A stretch of DNA of 38,374 nucleotides from a virus. The notes below the pieces were generated by a model. That model did not search any database, was not told the DNA's origin, and was given only the letters and a program-made list of their open reading frames with translations. The DNA lies in the IMG/VR virus record IMGVR_UViG_3300021347_000012, positions 1-38,374 of that record; one strand, 5' to 3'. The position numbers and the translations under genes are program-made. Below, piece by piece: positions 5,323 through 21,256 of this stretch (position 1 is the first letter of the stretch; each line of letters opens with the position of its first letter).

Positions 5323-5508
5323 TTACTCCGTAATAATGTAGTTAGGTGTAGCACTTGAGGATGCCTCAGTAATAATATAATAGCCACCTTGTTCAATTTC
5401 TATTTCTGCAGCAGACGATTCTGTAACGTCAAACTCTCTCTGCCATTGCCTTCTGTTTGTCAGCATTGCTAGAGTTTTTTGTTTTCTCCAAGGTAGTCTC
5501 TTGCCCAT
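5323..5508 (-). CDS. Hypothetical 61-residue protein
   Basis: A small protein with a strongly basic N-terminus (MGKRLPWRKQKT), a middle with WQREFDVTESSAAEIEIE and a polar C-terminus containing two YIITE motifs. It is coupled to the upstream gene (stop and start overlap at 5508) and ends 3 bp before the fibre gene start. Its place between capsid-region genes and fibres suggests a small virion or neck component, but I do not recognise it. Confidence 0.6.
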   Translation of the reverse strand: MGKRLPWRKQKTLAMLTNRRQWQREFDVTESSAAEIEIEQGGYYIITEASSSATPNYIITE

Positions 5509-12793: not shown

Positions 12794-12820
12794 TTTACAA
12801 GGCGTGCACTTATGTATAAT
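12794..12820 (+). promoter_or_regulatory. Rightward early promoter
   Basis: A perfect -10 TATAAT at 12815-12820 follows TTTACA at 12794-12799 (spacer 15) or the overlapping TGTTTA two bases earlier (spacer 17). The expected start is near 12827. It drives the first rightward gene. Confidence 0.65.
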
Positions 12821-12850
12821 GAACTCATCTTAAGCGGGATTGCTTAGGAG

Positions 12851-12873
12851 CCTAGATAGACAAAATATCTAGG
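12851..12873 (+). promoter_or_regulatory. 5' UTR hairpin of the first early gene
   Basis: CCTAGATA and TATCTAGG form a perfect 8-bp stem around a 7-base loop, lying between the predicted transcription start and the ribosome binding site (AAGGAA at about 12890). It could stabilise the mRNA or be an RNase III or protein target. Confidence 0.6.
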
Positions 12874-12900
12874 AATTACAATAACTTACAAGGAAATACA

Positions 12901-13473
12901 ATGAAAAATAAAATGACAGACCAACAACAAATAGCGAGCTTTATTGATACTTTAGGTAACATCCGCAAGGCAGAAGGACAAGTCACTGAGACCCTGAAAG
13001 CTGTAGCAACTAACACTAAGTTTAAGGGTGTGTTTCTTAAGGAAATGAATAAGCAACTCACTACACTAGAGAACGAAGAACTCAAGGAGTTTAAAGGACG
13101 CATTCACAAGATGCAGAAGCTCATCGCTAAGAAGAAAACTCAGGAATCTATCTTGACCGCTAGAGATAACGCGGAGCCTGATACTCATCACTACACTATA
13201 CGCCTAGTCAATGATAAAGACATCACTGAAAGGGGTACTCACAAGGAAGCTGATAGGGGTAAATTGAGAGAATTCTGCTTAGTCAAGCCGGAGCCTGAAG
13301 CTAAGAAAGAAAAGACTCTATTGGAAGTCATAGGAGACTGGCAAGAAAAGGCATTGGGAGATGATTCCACAATGTCAAAGGATGATTACGAAGGACAATT
13401 GCACGATGCTAAAGCTCATCTACTGCTAGAGACTGCAACTATCCCATTCAAGAAGCCGGAGGATAGAAAGTAA
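12901..13473 (+). CDS. First early gene, unknown charged helical protein
   Basis: A 190-residue protein I do not recognise. It is highly charged and mostly helical, with a predicted coiled region (FLKEMNKQLTTLENEELKEF, then KMQKLIAKKKTQES), a middle with HHYTIRLVNDKD and an acidic/basic C-terminus. No cysteines arranged as a metal site, no clear helix-turn-helix and no membrane segment are seen. It has its own promoter, 5' hairpin, Shine-Dalgarno (AAGGAA) and intrinsic terminator, so it is a separate transcription unit. Copies of the TGTCACC palindrome flank it on both sides. First-expressed phage genes often encode host take-over factors or regulators; that is an inference from position. Confidence 0.8.
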   Translation: MKNKMTDQQQIASFIDTLGNIRKAEGQVTETLKAVATNTKFKGVFLKEMNKQLTTLENEELKEFKGRIHKMQKLIAKKKTQESILTARDNAEPDTHHYTIRLVNDKDITERGTHKEADRGKLREFCLVKPEPEAKKEKTLLEVIGDWQEKALGDDSTMSKDDYEGQLHDAKAHLLLETATIPFKKPEDRK

Positions 13474-13490
13474 ATCACCGCAACCTAAAG

Positions 13491-13517
13491 AGCCCGGGTT
13501 TATCCCGGGTTTTTTTT
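13491..13517 (+). terminator. Intrinsic terminator after first early gene
   Basis: CCCGGG (13493-13498), loop TTTAT, CCCGGG (13504-13509), flanked by two further weak pairs and followed by eight T residues. This is a textbook Rho-independent terminator 18 bp after the stop codon. Confidence 0.92.
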
Positions 13518-13528
13518 CGTCTAAAGTT

Positions 13529-13542
13529 TGTCACCAGTGACA
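13529..13542. promoter_or_regulatory. Palindrome copy 2 (TGTCACCAGTGACA)
   Basis: One-base variant of the palindrome (A for G at the centre). It lies between the terminator and the next promoter, 16 bp upstream of the -35 TTGACA at 13559. Confidence 0.85.
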
Positions 13543-13558
13543 GATTATTGGTTAGCTG

Positions 13559-13587
13559 TTGACAATACCAAAGCAATAAATTATTAT
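13559..13587 (+). promoter_or_regulatory. Sigma70 promoter for the small early genes
   Basis: TTGACA (13559-13564), a 17-base spacer and TATTAT (13582-13587) match the consensus very well. Transcription would start near 13594, which excludes the TTG at 13587 as a start codon of the next gene. Confidence 0.85.
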
Positions 13588-13619
13588 TGGCACAAATCAA
13601 CAACAGACCCGGAGGTCAT

Positions 13620-14219
13620 ATGCAAAAAGTAAGAATCGGAGAGAAGGAATATTCTAGGACAGTGATTAAGAATAATATCCTTAAGGTATACAAAGTATCT
13701 GCAGATTATGAGCGTAATGATTGGTATAGAGAAGCTCATAATTTTGGCGTTGAGGTGTCTAGCTTTATGAAGTCATTCCGAAAGTATAATATCACCGTAA
13801 ATCAAGTTCTAGGCGTTGTGAGTGCCTTGTCTCCACTTAAAGAGTGGGAGAAAAACAAGGAGATTGCAGTTGACTTTATTTTGACAGGTGATTGCGGACA
13901 TATGGGAGCCAACAAGCGTAAAGCTAGGAAGATTTTAGATTGCGATGGCTCCGACTCTAAAATACTGGAGATTCTAAGCGGTCCGAAGACATCACGCTTT
14001 TATATGAATATGATGTACCCGGATGGAACCGGGGTGACAGTGGATAGACACGCGATTGCAATTGCTATCGGTCGGACCGCAACAGATAAAGAGCAGTCTC
14101 TAACACCTAAAGCCTATGAATTCATAGAAAAGTGTTATACAATGACCGCTGAAACATTAGGACTGGACCCGTTACACCTCCAGTCTATAACGTGGCAGAC
14201 TTGGAAGCGTATCAAATAG
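13620..14219 (+). CDS. HhH-GPD (DNA glycosylase)-like early protein
   Basis: The start is the ATG at 13620, which has GGAGG 4 bp upstream; a longer TTG-start version would begin before the predicted transcript start. The 199-residue protein contains VVSALSPLKEWEKNKEIAVDF, then KARKIL, and a key region LSGPKTSRFYMNMM followed by VTVDRHAIAIAIG. The order GxKT...VDRH parallels the hairpin and catalytic loop of endonuclease III-type glycosylases (GRKTA...VDTH), with Lys about 120 and Asp about 140 in equivalent places. There is no iron-sulphur Cys cluster at the C-terminus. I recall similar uncharacterised phage proteins. Base-excision or DNA-binding function is an inference from this motif only. 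Confidence 0.7.
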   Translation: MQKVRIGEKEYSRTVIKNNILKVYKVSADYERNDWYREAHNFGVEVSSFMKSFRKYNITVNQVLGVVSALSPLKEWEKNKEIAVDFILTGDCGHMGANKRKARKILDCDGSDSKILEILSGPKTSRFYMNMMYPDGTGVTVDRHAIAIAIGRTATDKEQSLTPKAYEFIEKCYTMTAETLGLDPLHLQSITWQTWKRIK

Positions 14220-14221
14220 TT

Positions 14222-14235
14222 TGTCACCGGTGACA
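14222..14235. promoter_or_regulatory. Palindrome copy 3 (TGTCACCGGTGACA)
   Basis: Perfect copy starting 2 bp after the stop of the glycosylase-like gene and ending 13 bp before the Shine-Dalgarno hairpin of the next gene. No convincing promoter follows it. Confidence 0.85.
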
Positions 14236-14248
14236 TAATTTTAATCAA

Positions 14249-14264
14249 AAGACTAGGAGGTCTT
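14249..14264 (+). promoter_or_regulatory. Shine-Dalgarno hairpin 1
   Basis: AAGAC and GTCTT form a 5-bp stem with TAGGAG as the loop, directly before the GTG start at 14265. The ribosome binding core therefore sits in a hairpin loop. The same 19-bp element (CAAAAGACTAGGAGGTCTT) recurs before the next gene. Confidence 0.7.
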
Positions 14265-14495
14265 GTGGAAAAAACAATATCAGTACAAAAATCTTGGGGT
14301 GACGGTGAAGTCGATGTCACCCTTGAGGAATTTCGGAAGAAATTTCAGGACCATCACCAACTTTATCTATTAGTTGACTACACTGAGCTTGATTCTATGA
14401 CGAAATATCTTGACAGAATCAAGAAAATGATAGATAATCTAGCTACTCGGAAGTTTGATATACTTTACGAGCGACAAAATAAACCAAAAGACTAG
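14265..14495 (+). CDS. Hypothetical 76-residue early protein
   Basis: Starts with GTG at 14265 immediately after the Shine-Dalgarno hairpin. The protein begins MEKTISVQKSWGDGEVDVTLEEF and continues with a helical, charged C-terminal half (DSMTKYLDRIKKMIDNLATRKFD). Not recognised. No Cys motif or membrane segment. Its stop codon TAG falls within the loop of the second Shine-Dalgarno hairpin, so translation termination here could open that structure for the next gene. Confidence 0.7.
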   Translation: MEKTISVQKSWGDGEVDVTLEEFRKKFQDHHQLYLLVDYTELDSMTKYLDRIKKMIDNLATRKFDILYERQNKPKD

Positions 14496-14503
14496 GAGGT
14501 CTT
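14488..14503 (+). promoter_or_regulatory. Shine-Dalgarno hairpin 2
   Basis: Identical in stem and loop to the element at 14249-14264 (AAGAC, TAGGAG, GTCTT), directly before the ATG at 14504. The upstream gene's TAG stop is part of the loop. Confidence 0.7.
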
Positions 14504-14827
14504 ATGACACAGGAAGAATTAACCGTAAAACGCGAGGATTTATACAAATCTTGGGGCTATGACATAGAAAAGCTACCATTCGGAGCCCATATGTGGCTTG
14601 AACCGGAGAAAGGAACCAGACAGAACCCATATTCTGGGGTCATTGTCGAACTGGACCCGGTAGAGATGGCTATTTATGACCATACTATGATGTCTTATCA
14701 CGACCATATAGAGCTTGGCACTGGCGGTGACTATGTAGAAGCTAGAAAACTGTATAAAGACTTTAACAAAGGCAAGAATTGGTTCATTGAGAACAATGTA
14801 GAAGCCTATATGGAGTTAATTGACTGA
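14504..14827 (+). CDS. Hypothetical 107-residue early protein
   Basis: The protein has a central YSGVIVELDPVEMAIYDHTMMSYHDH segment and ends NNVEAYMELID. I recall small marine phage and cyanophage proteins with the same GVxVxLDPxExAIYD...AYMxLxD pattern, of unknown function. It is soluble and acidic. The end overlaps the next gene by one base as TGATG, so the pair is translationally coupled. Confidence 0.75.
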   Translation: MTQEELTVKREDLYKSWGYDIEKLPFGAHMWLEPEKGTRQNPYSGVIVELDPVEMAIYDHTMMSYHDHIELGTGGDYVEARKLYKDFNKGKNWFIENNVEAYMELID

Positions 14828-15021
14828 TGAGTGGCAGAGATTGGACCCCTCTCAAGGAAATTATGCTAGTTGACACTGCGGTAGAGCTGAAAAGAGTCGT
14901 TAGGCTCTACCAAGATGCAGATTTTGAGGATAATCACCGCTTAGCTAGGCGTTATAAGGGTCAAGCTGAGCATTTACAGTCTCTCGTTGATGCGGGAGTC
15001 GAATACACTGTTAATTTTTAG
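14827..15021 (+). CDS. Hypothetical 64-residue early protein
   Basis: Starts at the ATG overlapping the previous stop (TGATG). The protein is short and helical (LVDTAVELKRVVRLYQDADF, then RRYKGQAEHLQSLVDAG). No recognised domain. Its stop region contributes the ribosome binding site (TAGGAGA) for the next gene. Confidence 0.65.
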   Translation: MSGRDWTPLKEIMLVDTAVELKRVVRLYQDADFEDNHRLARRYKGQAEHLQSLVDAGVEYTVNF

Positions 15022-15029
15022 GAGATATT

Positions 15030-15275
15030 ATGGAAATAAGTATATATTCAAGCGATGTTAGGGACTTTGACGAGCAAGTTGAATCATTTTTTGACATCAG
15101 ACACAGAATAGGCAAGGAAATTTTTGATGATGATGGTAGATTAAGCGAAGAAAATTATCCCTACGCTATTGAGCCTGACACATATCTTGCTATAATGGTT
15201 GATATGCAACAGCAGATTAATGACCTTGTTACAGAAATCAAACAACTTAAACAAGACGGATGGAGTACGAAATGA
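15030..15275 (+). CDS. Hypothetical 81-residue early protein
   Basis: Preceded by TAGGAGATATT, a good ribosome binding site overlapping the previous stop. The protein is acidic in the first half (FDEQVESFFDIRHRIGKEIFDDDG) and ends in a predicted short coiled coil (VDMQQQINDLVTEIKQLKQDG). Not recognised. It overlaps the following small gene as ATGA. Confidence 0.65.
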   Translation: MEISIYSSDVRDFDEQVESFFDIRHRIGKEIFDDDGRLSEENYPYAIEPDTYLAIMVDMQQQINDLVTEIKQLKQDGWSTK

Positions 15276-15427
15276 CAAACCCTAACAACAATCAAAATGC
15301 CTACAAGCAGGCGTTACAAATTAACAGGGACCTCAAGCGTGAGAATGACCGTCTTGAGGAGAAAATTAAATTACTATTAGAAATCATAGAGGAGCAAGTA
15401 AATGCACAAAAAACCACTGATAAGTAG
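15272..15427 (+). CDS. 51-residue coiled-coil protein
   Basis: A short ORF overlapping the previous gene by 4 bp (ATGA) and the next by 26 bp. It encodes an Asn/Gln-rich N-terminus (MTNPNNNQNAYKQALQ) and a clear leucine heptad coiled coil (RDLKRENDRLEEKIKLLLEI). Tight packing on both sides and the leucine spacing support a real gene. A dimerisation or scaffold role is possible; function unknown. Confidence 0.6.
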   Translation: MTNPNNNQNAYKQALQINRDLKRENDRLEEKIKLLLEIIEEQVNAQKTTDK

Positions 15428-15683
15428 ACTAGCACAGGTATATGAAGACACAAAACTACTGTACTTTGTGACTGACGGAGAAGGCAACTGTATGCTAGAC
15501 AATGTCACTCAGGCTGACGCATACATATATGCTATGAAGAATGGTTGGTCTGTCGGTAGACACGATTATGTGTCACCGGTGACAGATTATGAGCCCAATC
15601 CTGACTTACCTTTTTATAATGACGATGGCACTGCTATCACTTATGAGAACAAAGACATACTTAATGAGGAGGATTTACAATGA
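15402..15683 (+). CDS. Hypothetical 93-residue protein carrying a palindrome copy
   Basis: The protein has LLYFVTDGEGNCMLDNVTQADAY and an acidic, Pro-rich C-terminus. The palindrome at 15571-15584 is translated in frame as V-S-P-V-T (residues about 57-61), between a Gly/Trp segment and the acidic tail. Not recognised. Overlaps the upstream coiled-coil gene, and its end overlaps the next start (ATGA). Likely soluble. Confidence 0.7.
   Translation: MHKKPLISRLAQVYEDTKLLYFVTDGEGNCMLDNVTQADAYIYAMKNGWSVGRHDYVSPVTDYEPNPDLPFYNDDGTAITYENKDILNEEDLQ
15571..15584. promoter_or_regulatory. Palindrome copy 4 (TGTCACCGGTGACA)
   Basis: Perfect copy inside the 93-codon gene, read there as VSPVT. Followed by GATTATGAG, which partly recurs after copy 5 (ATTATGAG). 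Confidence 0.85.
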
Positions 15684-15859
15684 AGTGTAAATGTTGCGAT
15701 GTTTTGCTCAGTGAGTGGGAGTCTAAGGCTAAAGACCCTGCAGATAGAACACAATATTTAGACTTATGTTCTACCTGTAGATACCATTCCAATCCTTATT
15801 CTTTCTTAGATGATGATTGGGATATAAAAAAAGAAGATATTAATGTTGACATCGGTTGA
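15680..15859 (+). CDS. 59-residue zinc ribbon protein
   Basis: Starts at an ATG overlapping the upstream stop (ATGA), with GAGGAGG upstream. The protein opens MKCKCCDVLLSEW and has LCSTCRYH about 26 residues later: two cysteine knuckles (CxCC and CxxC) of a likely single-zinc ribbon. The C-terminus is acidic. Small zinc ribbons in phage early regions often bind DNA or RNA polymerase; that is only a possibility here. The last 14 bases overlap the tandem promoter for the SSB leader. Confidence 0.7.
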   Translation: MKCKCCDVLLSEWESKAKDPADRTQYLDLCSTCRYHSNPYSFLDDDWDIKKEDINVDIG

Positions 15860-15885
15860 CAAATAGATTAAAATATTACTATAGA
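15846..15885 (+). promoter_or_regulatory. Tandem sigma70 promoters upstream of SSB
   Basis: First promoter: TTGACA (15846-15851), 17-base spacer, TAAAAT (15869-15874), start near 15881. A second TTGACA (15856-15861) lies 10 bp downstream and pairs with TATAGA (15880-15885, spacer 18). The two -35 boxes form the direct repeat TTGACATCGGTTGACA. Confidence 0.78.
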
Positions 15886-15983
15886 TTCAATTAAAGAGAT
15901 AACCATAATGATTATCACTTTAGTTGAGTCTAAAGTATGTTTGGCTGTTGTGATTTCGAGTCCGTCACAGCAGTCTTTTTTTT
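15881..15983 (+). ncRNA. Structured leader RNA or small RNA with three hairpins
   Basis: From the predicted start the transcript contains three successive hairpins. The first is GATAA/TTATC (15898-15916). The second is ACTTTAG/CTAAAGT with a 6-base loop (15917-15936). The third is an 11-bp stem (15943-15953 with 15965-15975) that ends in eight U residues. If termination is efficient, the product is a small RNA of about 100 nt; if it is conditional, this is an attenuator in front of SSB. A 33-codon ORF (15908-16009) crosses the terminator. No known RNA family is recognised. Confidence 0.55.
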
Positions 15984-16009
15984 CAGGGCTCCGAGGAAAC
16001 AAACTATGA
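15908..16009 (+). CDS. Possible SSB leader peptide, 33 residues
   Basis: An ATG at 15908 opens a 33-codon frame (starts MIITLVESKVC) that reads through the second hairpin and the terminator hairpin and ends with TGA overlapping the SSB start codon (ATGA). The upstream AAGAGA is a weak ribosome binding site. The arrangement would let translating ribosomes disrupt the terminator and couple to SSB. It could equally be a chance frame; codon evidence is too short to judge. Confidence 0.35.
   Translation: MIITLVESKVCLAVVISSPSQQSFFSGLRGNKL
15943..15983 (+). terminator. Intrinsic terminator or attenuator upstream of SSB
   Basis: An 11-bp stem with two G-T wobbles (GGCTGTTGTGA with TCACAGCAGTC), an 11-base loop and T8 (15976-15983). 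It lies only about 60-100 bases after the promoters and 22 bp before the SSB start codon, so it must be bypassed or regulated for SSB expression from these promoters. Confidence 0.82.
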
Positions 16010-16413
16010 TAACTAAAGGTATAGCAAAGTATGTCTATCTAGACAGTACAGAAAAATTCAACGGTGAGGATACTGGTAAGTACACACTTACTGTCGCTGT
16101 TGATGACAAAGAAGCCAAAGCACTAGAGTCAGCAGGTGTTAAGGTCCGCACTATTCAGACAGAGGACGGAGGGTCTTACAAGGCACGCAAGTTCTCCACT
16201 AAGTATCCATTGTCTTTTGAGATGGTGAAGACTGGCGACGGTGAAGCAATCGGTCACGATTTCGGAGCAGAGTCAGAAGTACAGGTACTTTGGAAAGCAG
16301 GAAACGAGCACCCTCAACACGGTGTCGCAACCTACCTCACTGCAGTTAAAGTATTGAAGCGTACCGAAGGGTACAAATCACAGGATGCTGAGACTAGTGA
16401 GTTCTTCGCATAA
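16006..16413 (+). CDS. T7 gp2.5-like single-stranded DNA binding protein
   Basis: The start is set at the ATG at 16006 with GAGGAA upstream; the longer frame from 15937 would begin inside the terminator hairpin. The 135-residue protein begins MITKGIAKYVYLDSTEKF, contains GKYTLTVAVDDKEAKALE and a central FSTKYPLSFEMV region typical of an OB fold, and ends with an acidic tail closed by an aromatic (DAETSEFFA). T7 gp2.5 has the same plan, in which the C-terminal acidic tail and final Phe contact polymerase and helicase. It coats single-stranded DNA in replication. The end overlaps the primase gene. Confidence 0.88.
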   Translation: MITKGIAKYVYLDSTEKFNGEDTGKYTLTVAVDDKEAKALESAGVKVRTIQTEDGGSYKARKFSTKYPLSFEMVKTGDGEAIGHDFGAESEVQVLWKAGNEHPQHGVATYLTAVKVLKRTEGYKSQDAETSEFFA

Positions 16414-18049
16414 CCCCTCTACGTTTGTAGAACACAAGCCCTGCCCTGCCTGTAGAGATACAGGTGGGGACAGAGCAGGTGATAACCTAGCTATCTATTC
16501 TGATGGTCACGGTTATTGTAATGCCTGTGGTCACTATGAGAAAAGTGTCACCGGTGACAAACATTATGAGGAGGAAACATTTATGCAAACAATTACACCG
16601 AGAGGTGTGGCTAATGCGTCAATTAAGGACAGACGCATATCATCTAACATAACATCTAAGTTTGGTGTCACTGTTAGTTACGACAAGACCGGTCAGATAG
16701 AGAAACATTACTATCCATACTACGACTCTAACGAGAGCAATAGGCTCCTCGGATATAAAGAGAGAACTGTCGCAACTAAAGAGTTTCAGATTATTGGAAC
16801 GAACAAAGGCTCCGGGCTATTCGGACAGAACGCTAACCGCTCCGGTGGTAAGTATCTGACTATCTGTGAAGGCGAAATTGACGCCCTCTCGATTTCAGAA
16901 ATGTTCGATGGCAAGTGGCAGGTGGTCTCCCTAAAGAATGGGGCGTCTTCTGCGTCACGAGATATCAAAGACAATCTAGAATACATAGAGTCTTTCGATA
17001 ATGTAGTGCTTTGTTTCGACCAAGACCAAGCCGGGTTCGATGCGGTCAAAGCCTGTCAAGATATTATATCTGTCGGCAAGCTCAAGGTTTGTAAGCTACC
17101 TATGAAGGACGCTAGTGATATGCTAGTGAACGGAAAGGTTAAAGAGTTTACTAATGCTTGGTGGTCTGCTGAGTCTTATACTCCTGCAGGTATCATCAGA
17201 GGTAAGGATACTTGGGAACATCTACTTAAGGATGAAGACTTACTTACTATTGACTATCCGTGGCAAGGTCTTAACACTTTGACTTATGGATTCAGAGCGA
17301 AAGAGCTAGTAACTATCACCAGTGGCTCAGGTATGGGCAAGACCAGTGTCGTTAAGGAATTGGAGTCTTACATACTGAACAACACTGAGGACAACCTAGC
17401 TATCATTCACTTGGAAGAATCTATCGAGCGTACTGTTAAGGGTCTGATGTCTATCGAAGCCAATGCTCCTATCCACATACCTCAGTACGAAAGAGAGCTG
17501 AGTGATGCGGACAAGAAAGCACTGTGGCAGAAGTCAGTAGGCGACAAGAATGTATTCTTCTATGACCACTTCGGTAGTATGTCTGAGGACTCACTACTTA
17601 ATGTGATTAGAACGTATGCTAAATCCTATGATTGTCAGTGGATTGTACTGGACCACTTGTCTATCGTAGTCAGTGACCAAGACGGTATAGCTGACGAGCG
17701 TAAGGCAATTGATGCCATTATGACTAAGCTCCGCAAGATAGTACAGGAGACTGGCGTAGGCTTATTCCTTATATCTCATCTTAGGAGACCTCAAGGTAGG
17801 GCTCACGAAGAAGGTGGACAGGTGAGCTTATCAGAGCTTAGAGGTTCCGCAGCAATTGCTCAGTTGTCTGACATTGTAATAGGCTTGGAGCGTAACCAAC
17901 AGGACGATGACCCTATCATCCGTAACCAAACAACACTACGGGTTATAAAGAATAGGTTCTCAGGTCTGACTGGTCCCGCTTGTAAGCTACAGTATGACAG
18001 TGACACCGGAAGATTGACGGAGGTAGATGATGAACACAGCTTTTTTTGA
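16385..18049 (+). CDS. Primase-helicase (T7 gp4-like)
   Basis: A 554-residue bifunctional protein. Zinc-binding domain: CPAC (residues 20-23) and CNAC (45-48). TOPRIM primase: CEGEIDALS (about 161) and CFDQDQAG (about 211). RecA-like helicase: Walker A GSGMGKTS (about 317-324), HLEES, Walker B WIVLDH (about 427), ISHLRRP and LSELRGSAAIAQLSD, then an acidic tail ending in FF. It unwinds duplex DNA and makes primers for the polymerase. The start overlaps SSB by 29 bp; GTG at 16397 is an alternative start. The palindrome at 16546 encodes VTGD just after the zinc domain, in the interdomain linker. Confidence 0.95.
   Translation: MLRLVSSSHNPSTFVEHKPCPACRDTGGDRAGDNLAIYSDGHGYCNACGHYEKSVTGDKHYEEETFMQTITPRGVANASIKDRRISSNITSKFGVTVSYDKTGQIEKHYYPYYDSNESNRLLGYKERTVATKEFQIIGTNKGSGLFGQNANRSGGKYLTICEGEIDALSISEMFDGKWQVVSLKNGASSASRDIKDNLEYIESFDNVVLCFDQDQAGFDAVKACQDIISVGKLKVCKLPMKDASDMLVNGKVKEFTNAWWSAESYTPAGIIRGKDTWEHLLKDEDLLTIDYPWQGLNTLTYGFRAKELVTITSGSGMGKTSVVKELESYILNNTEDNLAIIHLEESIERTVKGLMSIEANAPIHIPQYERELSDADKKALWQKSVGDKNVFFYDHFGSMSEDSLLNVIRTYAKSYDCQWIVLDHLSIVVSDQDGIADERKAIDAIMTKLRKIVQETGVGLFLISHLRRPQGRAHEEGGQVSLSELRGSAAIAQLSDIVIGLERNQQDDDPIIRNQTTLRVIKNRFSGLTGPACKLQYDSDTGRLTEVDDEHSFF
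16546..16559. promoter_or_regulatory. Palindrome copy 5 (TGTCACCGGTGACA)
   Basis: Perfect copy inside the primase-helicase gene, read as S-V-T-G-D-K in the linker after the zinc-binding domain. The reading frame differs from that of copy 4. Confidence 0.85.
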
Positions 18050-20710: not shown

Positions 20711-21053
20711 GCTAGAGAAAGAATGTGCGGAAGCACTGGGCAGAGAATGGAAGTATGAACCCTGTAGGATTGCCTATACGATACGAAAGAACTACACCCC
20801 TGACTTTGTTAAGGGTAGGTATCATATAGAAGTCAAAGGGTTCTTTAGGAGTGGTGACAGACAGAAGTATAAATCAATTGCTGAGCAGTTAAGTTTTGAA
20901 GGCAAGACATTAATCTTCTTGATGCCACGCCCCGACTCCAAGGTAGCCAAGGGTAATAAGATTACTTATCGACAGTGGTGTGATAAGTATGATATTAAAA
21001 TATTTTCAACTAAAGAAATTAAGGAGCTTAAGAAGTGGACGAAGATAACATAA
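20688..21053 (+). CDS. Endonuclease I-like Holliday junction resolvase (T7 gp3-like)
   Basis: 121 residues, overlapping the exonuclease end by 23 bp. The catalytic signature is E (RSKLEKECAEAL), YTPDF (Asp about 39), then HIEVKG (Glu-x-Lys about 48-50), the arrangement of T7 endonuclease I. The C-terminal half (KTLIFLMPRPDS, YRQWCDKYDIKIFST) fits the family. It cleaves branched DNA, clearing junctions before packaging and breaking host DNA. Length is slightly shorter than the 149 residues of T7. Confidence 0.88.
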   Translation: MATKFRSKLEKECAEALGREWKYEPCRIAYTIRKNYTPDFVKGRYHIEVKGFFRSGDRQKYKSIAEQLSFEGKTLIFLMPRPDSKVAKGNKITYRQWCDKYDIKIFSTKEIKELKKWTKIT

Positions 21054-21256
21054 ATCCTAACCATTATAAGCAGGGTAATATTGAGGTCATAGACTTTATC
21101 TTAGACCAAGATATGGATTACCTAACCGCCTCTATAACCAAGTATGTCTGCCGATGGCGATTCAAGAATGGTATAGAGGACTTAAAGAAAGCTCGATGGT
21201 TCTTAGATAAACTTATAGAACACGAGGGAGGACAGTATGGCTCTAACTTTAAATGA
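21035..21256 (+). CDS. DUF3310 protein
   Basis: 73 residues from a GTG start at 21035 with AAGGAG 8 bp upstream. The sequence INPNHYKQGNIEVIDFI, then ITKYVCRWRFKNGIEDLKKARWFLDKLI is the DUF3310 pattern (HYxxG...EVIDFI...KYxxRxxxKNGxEDLxKAxWYLD). The family is widespread in phages and related in part to T7 gp1.7, which affects nucleotide metabolism. It lies among replication genes. Overlaps neighbours on both sides. Confidence 0.88.
   Translation: MDEDNINPNHYKQGNIEVIDFILDQDMDYLTASITKYVCRWRFKNGIEDLKKARWFLDKLIEHEGGQYGSNFK

Follow-up and report, generated by a model that had tools for sequence, protein, structure and literature searches.

A recurrent Shine-Dalgarno hairpin at the borders of variable early genes in a group of marine podoviruses

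Two consecutive small genes in a viral sequence are preceded by the same 19 bp, in which a Shine-Dalgarno (SD) sequence stands between complementary arms directly before the start codon. We asked whether this repeat is a structured start signal, an ordinary ribosome binding site that happens to be repeated, or a trace of DNA exchange. The sequence is IMG/VR record IMGVR_UViG_3300021347_000012, of which 38,374 bases (positions 1–38,374, referred to as the window) were analysed. Genes for terminase, portal and major capsid proteins are located on the minus strand of the window, and the plus strand encodes a primase/helicase, DNA polymerase, a Cas4-like exonuclease, an endonuclease and ribonucleotide reductase. 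The repeats lie at the left of the plus-strand block amid small genes. According to the primase/helicase, the nearest cultured relatives are marine Pelagibacter and Roseobacter phages with an identity below 60%, and blastn of positions 12800–16500 against a phage collection gave no match. The relatives carrying the hairpin are contigs of uncultured marine podoviruses of lytic type.

Three hairpins in the early block of the window

The first-pass annotation had placed the 19-mer CAAAAGACTAGGAGGTCTT at 14246–14264 and 14485–14503, each time directly before a start codon. This was confirmed, copy 1 leading into the GTG at 14265 and copy 2 into the ATG at 14504, as was the position of the stop codon TAG (14493–14495) of gene 14265 within copy 2. 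No other occurrence was found in the window even when 3 mismatches were allowed (0.05 expected). The arms had been drawn as 5 bp closing a 6-nt loop that exposes TAGGAG. Pairing of the arms is indeed predicted, with AAGACU and GGUCUU forming 6 bp, but the predicted fold adds one innermost U-G pair to the drawing, so that the loop is reduced to an AGGA tetraloop and TAGGAG is exposed only in part. Minimum free energies of the 22-mers are −5.2 and −5.1 kcal/mol (z −2.4 and −2.6). In a context of 51 nt the value is −6.3 kcal/mol, and in a context of 101 nt the folding energy is ordinary (z −0.45 and −1.45).

Speaking of twin hairpins proved too narrow. A diverged third copy precedes gene 13620 (Table 1). 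When the SD-bearing starts of the window were scanned, a compact hairpin of this kind was found only at these three consecutive genes. All three copies are located in the early plus-strand block, with the structural genes on the minus strand. Promoter-like matches precede only two of the three copies, one near gene 13620 and one inside gene 14265. A search of the window against Rfam 15 gave no match at the gathering score. For the conserved protein encoded upstream at 12901–13473 a structure was predicted with a mean pLDDT of 79.9, and comparison of this structure with the PDB gave no useful match.

Table 1. Features surrounding the three hairpins in the window.
Feature	Position	Strand	Remark
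Palindrome TGTCACCAGTGACA	13529..13542		upstream of the promoter-like site of gene 13620
Sigma-70-like promoter match TTGACA-17-TATTAT, 11 of 12	13559..13587	+	consensus match only; close to the third hairpin on its upstream side
Third, diverged SD hairpin GACC-CGGA-GGTC	13606..13617	+	before ATG 13620
Gene 13620 (cluster c6), DUF7178 / phrog_3842	13620..14219	+	
Palindrome TGTCACCGGTGACA	14222..14235		directly upstream of hairpin copy 1
SD hairpin copy 1, AAGACT-AGGA-GGTCTT	14249..14264	+	
Gene 14265 (cluster c7)	14265..14495	+	76 aa, GTG start
Sigma-70-like promoter match TTGACA-17-GATAAT	14410..14438	+	consensus match only; inside gene 14265
SD hairpin copy 2, AAGACT-AGGA-GGTCTT	14488..14503	+	contains TAG 14493-14495
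Gene 14504 (cluster c0)	14504..14827	+	107 aa, ATG start

Position and recurrence of the hairpin in relatives

We compared gene maps of 27 chosen loci among the contigs of relatives and found up to three joints that bear the element. Joint 1 follows the DUF7178 gene (c6) and carries palindrome and hairpin in all 13 mapped contigs with c6, the next gene belonging to cluster c7, c25, c14, c8 or c10. Addition of c6 relatives outside the map raised the number of contigs for this joint to 21, of which 16 have both elements and five (L142–L146) have neither. Joint 2 precedes the relatives of gene 14504 (c0): here the form GACY..GGTC is present in 13/27 contigs and GTCC..GGAC in 6/27, with neither in 8/27. 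At joint 3, behind c0, the hairpin was found in 9 of 26 contigs and was missing in 17. One and the same leader bears either hairpin type, contig by contig. As both copies of the window occupy conserved, separate joints in relatives, the recent duplication of a translation signal that had been considered is not supported.

The hairpin accompanies position rather than gene and is located immediately upstream of different gene families, at three genes in the window and at many clusters in relatives. Genes of cluster c7 are hairpin-borne in 2 of 13 mapped contigs, and only where c7 is the first gene after c6. For c11 this applies to 3 of 5, and the core clusters c2, c3, c4, c5 and c9 never carry the hairpin in the 27 mapped contigs. 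A Pfam search with ten hairpin-borne genes gave one DpnD/PcfM-like match below the cut-off and a few weaker ones, with no RNA-binding family among them. The predicted structure of the gene 14504 product (pLDDT 88.8) has the antirestriction protein ArdB as first PDB match (Foldseek E 0.078; Z 5.8), KlcA also being among the matches (Z 4.9). With such low Z values for a mostly helical protein, this weak structural similarity may be due to chance. An N-terminal KISKEFLEVSEK is common to a c7 protein (L058, 4135–4422) and a c0 protein (L032, 6027–6386), as though unrelated genes had traded their start regions.

Exact matches to the 16-mer were found in 33 contigs of the virus collection, by our estimate about what chance alone could give in a collection so large. 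Five contigs carry two copies each, and gene neighbours are common to these contigs and the window. A less biased test was obtained by fixing GGAGG and the start codon and asking for the left arm, using 122 non-redundant contexts from relatives. At GGAGGTC starts the arm GACY closes a loop of 3–6 nt in 12 of 13 cases (0.89 expected), and at GGAGGAC starts the arm GTCC is present in 2 of 10 (0.28 expected). For the remaining dinucleotides arm matches are near expectation. This test replaces an earlier count of 37 stems with at least 6 pairs (about 10.7 expected, 328 contexts), which was dropped because the contexts were not independent. We also considered a general enrichment of SD hairpins and rejected it, as 58 were observed against 51.3 expected in 294 contexts of the early region and 26 against 23.2 in 122 contexts of the later region.

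Among the matches listed, other viruses show little of the GACY/GGTC start hairpin. When right arm and start GGAGGTCTTATGAA were fixed, at least 4 pairs formed in 16 of 106 distinct contexts (7.8 expected), drawn from 119 loci among the matches listed. Of the 16 contexts, three come from the phage group studied here, and another three are repeated in tandem within a single other contig. A scan of stretches of HTVC115P and CRP-125 for AGGAGG and GGAGGT detected no hairpin of this kind, and stretches of SPO1 and Staphylococcus phage K, taken as a baseline, contained 0 and 1 GGAGGTC starts, too few for use. On the minus strand of contig L274 three AGAGCTTCAAAAGGCCGGAGGTCTTATGAA repeats are spaced about 80 nt apart (near 5495, 5575 and 5652) before short ORFs, possibly another start-associated repeat.

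Conservation of the arms and competing explanations

Stem bases that change without compensation in relatives had been set beforehand as the observation that would speak against the hairpin. We aligned 30 chosen stems (26 distinct), the inner four pairs being largely the rule by which rows were selected, and obtained a covariation score of 0.213 compared to 0.118 in shuffles, with none of 500 shuffles as high. Among the distinct rows the inner pair of columns 10 and 21 is A-U in 23 and U-A in 3, and the pair 8–23 is A-U in 15, U-A in 3 and unpaired in 8. The outermost pair is unpaired in 13 rows, and the innermost pair is U-G in 19 and C-G in 7. Compensated changes thus affect one inner pair in 3 of 26 rows and one outer pair in 3 of 26. 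Overall the outcome is mixed. At joint 3 the Ile codon preceding GAC is ATA when combined with GTCTT and ATT when combined with GTCAA, pairing being maintained here by a synonymous substitution. Several losses at this joint are uncompensated, with GAC facing GATATT in L011 and GGAC in L085, and a hairpin-free form is common to L067, L068, L027 and L079.

Loops vary in length from 3 to 6 nt with the arms kept, taking the forms GGA (L058), NGGA, AAGGA and AAAGGA (L032/L053). SD-containing GAC-N6-GTC dyads with a fourth pair were found in 57 rows, which count nested matches twice and correspond to about 35 separate sites; all of them have the SD in sense orientation and none is reversed. Co-varying arms, variable loop length and the exclusive sense orientation of the SD favour an RNA structure. 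Translational control by a structured SD, as suggested in the first-pass annotation, is supported at the level of comparison: the arms persist or co-vary, even though the loop differs in length and both the flanks and the genes downstream are variable. The RNA-binding protein named there as an example may act on the hairpin in trans.

Taken together, the comparison shows a recurrent hairpin with position-dependent occurrence and co-varying arms. The explanation we favour, at about an even chance, is that the repeats represent a translational hairpin linked to gene starts and positioned at the boundaries of variable slots for early genes. Its core would be GACY-(N)GGA-GGUC with a stem of 4–6 bp, the GGA of the SD being looped and the start codon following 2–4 nt past the core. 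The marine podovirus group would keep this hairpin behind the DUF7178 gene, ahead of gene 14504 and, in some relatives, past gene 14504 as well, and any gene inserted behind such a joint would receive it as its start signal. Since the hairpin is weak (about −5 kcal/mol), the 30S subunit could start binding at the looped AGGA and then open the stem. The stability would be close to the point where structure starts to repress initiation, a threshold reportedly described by de Smit and van Duin. With a weak hairpin near this threshold, translation of accessory early genes could be set uniformly and be shut by a factor. Binding or cutting of the looped GGA by such a factor, with RegB as the model for cutting, could close all genes of this kind together. 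Where the upstream stop codon lies inside the loop, as in copy 2 and the copies at joint 3, termination should open the hairpin, and terminating ribosomes would then couple the neighbouring genes. We infer this function for a start hairpin that is real, recurrent and specific to the group, and that borders swappable early genes. Its placement suggests that the production of accessory proteins is governed by a common switch.

Part of the evidence would also fit a recombination joint, i.e. 16–19 bp kept mainly as shared border DNA for cassette exchange by homologous recombination in the manner of PeSL, the hairpin being incidental or secondary. The hairpins do flank variable slots, with five different clusters behind the c6 joint, a single leader can bear either type across contigs, and the five core clusters are never hairpin-borne. 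A pure DNA joint should, however, keep sequence identity rather than pairing, whereas joint 2 has two stems, the arms co-vary and the loop varies, and any translation signal sits at gene borders anyway. We regard this explanation as rather unlikely; it is compatible with the translational hairpin. It is unlikely that the repeats are simply a strong SD inherited by common descent with a stem that has no role of its own. Such an origin would agree with the many near-identical, related copies, with the hairpin-free SDs at the same joint in close relatives and with the lack of overall enrichment of SD hairpins, but would explain neither the matching arm in 12 of 13 GGAGGTC sites nor the alternative stems at one joint.

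More specific readings concern what might recognise the site. Early mRNA cleavage of the RegB type at GG*AG of the looped SD is very unlikely. As in the T4 RegB sites, which are GGAG motifs of early SDs, the GGA is unpaired and the fourth G constrained, here in a closing U-G or C-G pair, an arrangement described as favourable in the available part of PMC3014915. The same part states that RNA structure is protective in most cases and that strong sites carry A-rich sequence on their 3' side, a feature missing here, and a search for the family gave no match in the window, nor in the control genomes. We consider it highly unlikely that AAGAC-N6-GTCTT is a DNA operator to which a dimeric protein binds at the starts of genes. 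In its favour, the sequence has dyad symmetry, which compensatory changes would preserve in DNA as well, and copy 1 has a palindrome of clearly DNA-like character immediately upstream. Against this, the spacer between GAC and GTC varies (N5, N6, N8), the inner pair is often T-G, and the SD-containing dyads are all in sense orientation, none reversed, and fixed to the start codon. A CsrA/RsmA-type site in the SD loop is extremely unlikely. The SD hairpin does expose GGA in a short loop, and the GTCCAAGGAGGAC variant contains A-N-GGA, the CsrA consensus being A(N)GGA in the available part of PMC4066749. In the main form the tetraloop model gives AGGA, but the first hexaloop position, where A is preferred, is a pyrimidine (U/C); only the GTCC variant fits the consensus fully. 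A phage-encoded CsrA was not found in the window, compared to 3 positive genomes out of 14 controls.

The palindrome set and comparison with known systems

The palindrome next to copy 1 belongs to a set of eight 14-bp TGTCACC[G/A]GTGACA copies in the window (12749, 13529, 14222, 15571, 16546, 18461, 24166 and 35135). For the 12-bp core 0.53 copies are expected within 2 mismatches, and several copies are located inside coding regions. Across clades the set, represented by TGTCACCGGTGACA in the window, changes its type jointly, coding regions included. The TGACACCGGTGTCA type occupies 6/6 sites in L038, L080 and L081, 3/3 in L079, 5/5 in L077 (one with a changed centre) and 5/6 in L045. L075 has GTTCACCGGTGAAC at 5 sites together with one site of the window type and one unrelated match, and in several further relatives, L105 and L121 among them, a TTAAANNTTTAA set takes its place. 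Types are mixed in L011 (2 and 2) and L073 (6 of 8). In the linker of the primase/helicase the encoded residues change along with the palindrome type. The palindromes look like a putative operator set with a clade-specific switch. About 25 nt past one copy the primase/helicase gene has an in-frame internal ATG (16583) preceded by the SD GAGGAGG, from which a shorter form of the protein could be made.

The closest known kind is the SAS/ESAS system (start-associated sequences and extended SAS) of cluster K mycobacteriophages, which are unrelated to the phage group of the window. SAS were without an assigned role in 2011 (PMC3203893) and are still described so in 2024 (PMC11373665), as far as the available parts of both papers go. 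According to these parts, SAS are, like the hairpins, short SD-containing repeats with complementary outer parts (GGG...CCC in SAS) a few nt before start codons, confined to the non-structural region, common to unrelated genes and sometimes holding the upstream stop codon, as does copy 2. The ESAS subset is described there as having upstream inverted repeats that differ by subcluster; likewise, the palindrome upstream of copy 1 (16/21 contigs) differs by clade, the sequences themselves not being alike. A promoter belongs to the ESAS arrangement as well; in the window promoter-like matches lie only near gene 13620 and inside gene 14265. Differences are found in sequence and number: the 13-bp SAS consensus GGGATAGGAGCCC is not in the window (allowing 3 mismatches gave 2 matches, where chance predicts 4.15), and 11–19 SAS copies are given per genome in the available text, compared to two exact and one diverged copy here. 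Folding of SAS would give a stem of only 3 bp with a 7-nt loop at −1.9 kcal/mol, and in the available part of their section the SAS authors propose no hairpin.

SAS copies are near-identical, and the comparative evidence that they cannot give is supplied by an independent phage group in which the element is looser and co-varies. This evidence points to an RNA hairpin. Such an element would also explain how control is retained over accessory genes that phages exchange all the time. One may go further and imagine early control in two layers, a DNA operator dyad that changes specificity across the whole genome from clade to clade and a looped-SD hairpin by which a phage factor would govern translation of any gene placed in the early slots, an SAS/ESAS architecture reached independently. 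This reading is possible but rather unlikely. If true, SAS would themselves be SD hairpins. The window also contains a DUF3310 gene (21035–21256, E 1.4e-15), which deserves attention because the 2024 Adephagia paper, in its available part, offers the speculation that SAS genes are acted on by a protein with DUF3310 (PMC11373665). The gene was found in 21 of the 33 loci searched, including two without the hairpin core (L105, L121), and is therefore not diagnostic.

Literature searches returned no papers on boundary sequences together with stem-loops in phage mosaicism and none on SD stem-loops in early genes of marine phages. In the PeSL cassettes of T4-type phages short repeated regulatory units likewise border shuffled early genes, as far as described in the available part of PMC4503421. 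A PeSL consists of an early promoter and a stem-loop, whereas here the SD itself lies in the loop; the stem-loop studied here is repeated at shuffled borders, with promoter-like sites before two of the three copies only. In the T4 genes e, soc, 49 and I-TevI the SD is part of an RNA helix at the start site, as here, according to the available part of PMC3014915. In the phage group studied here the structure is instead a recurrent small hairpin with half of the SD in the loop, placed before many genes.
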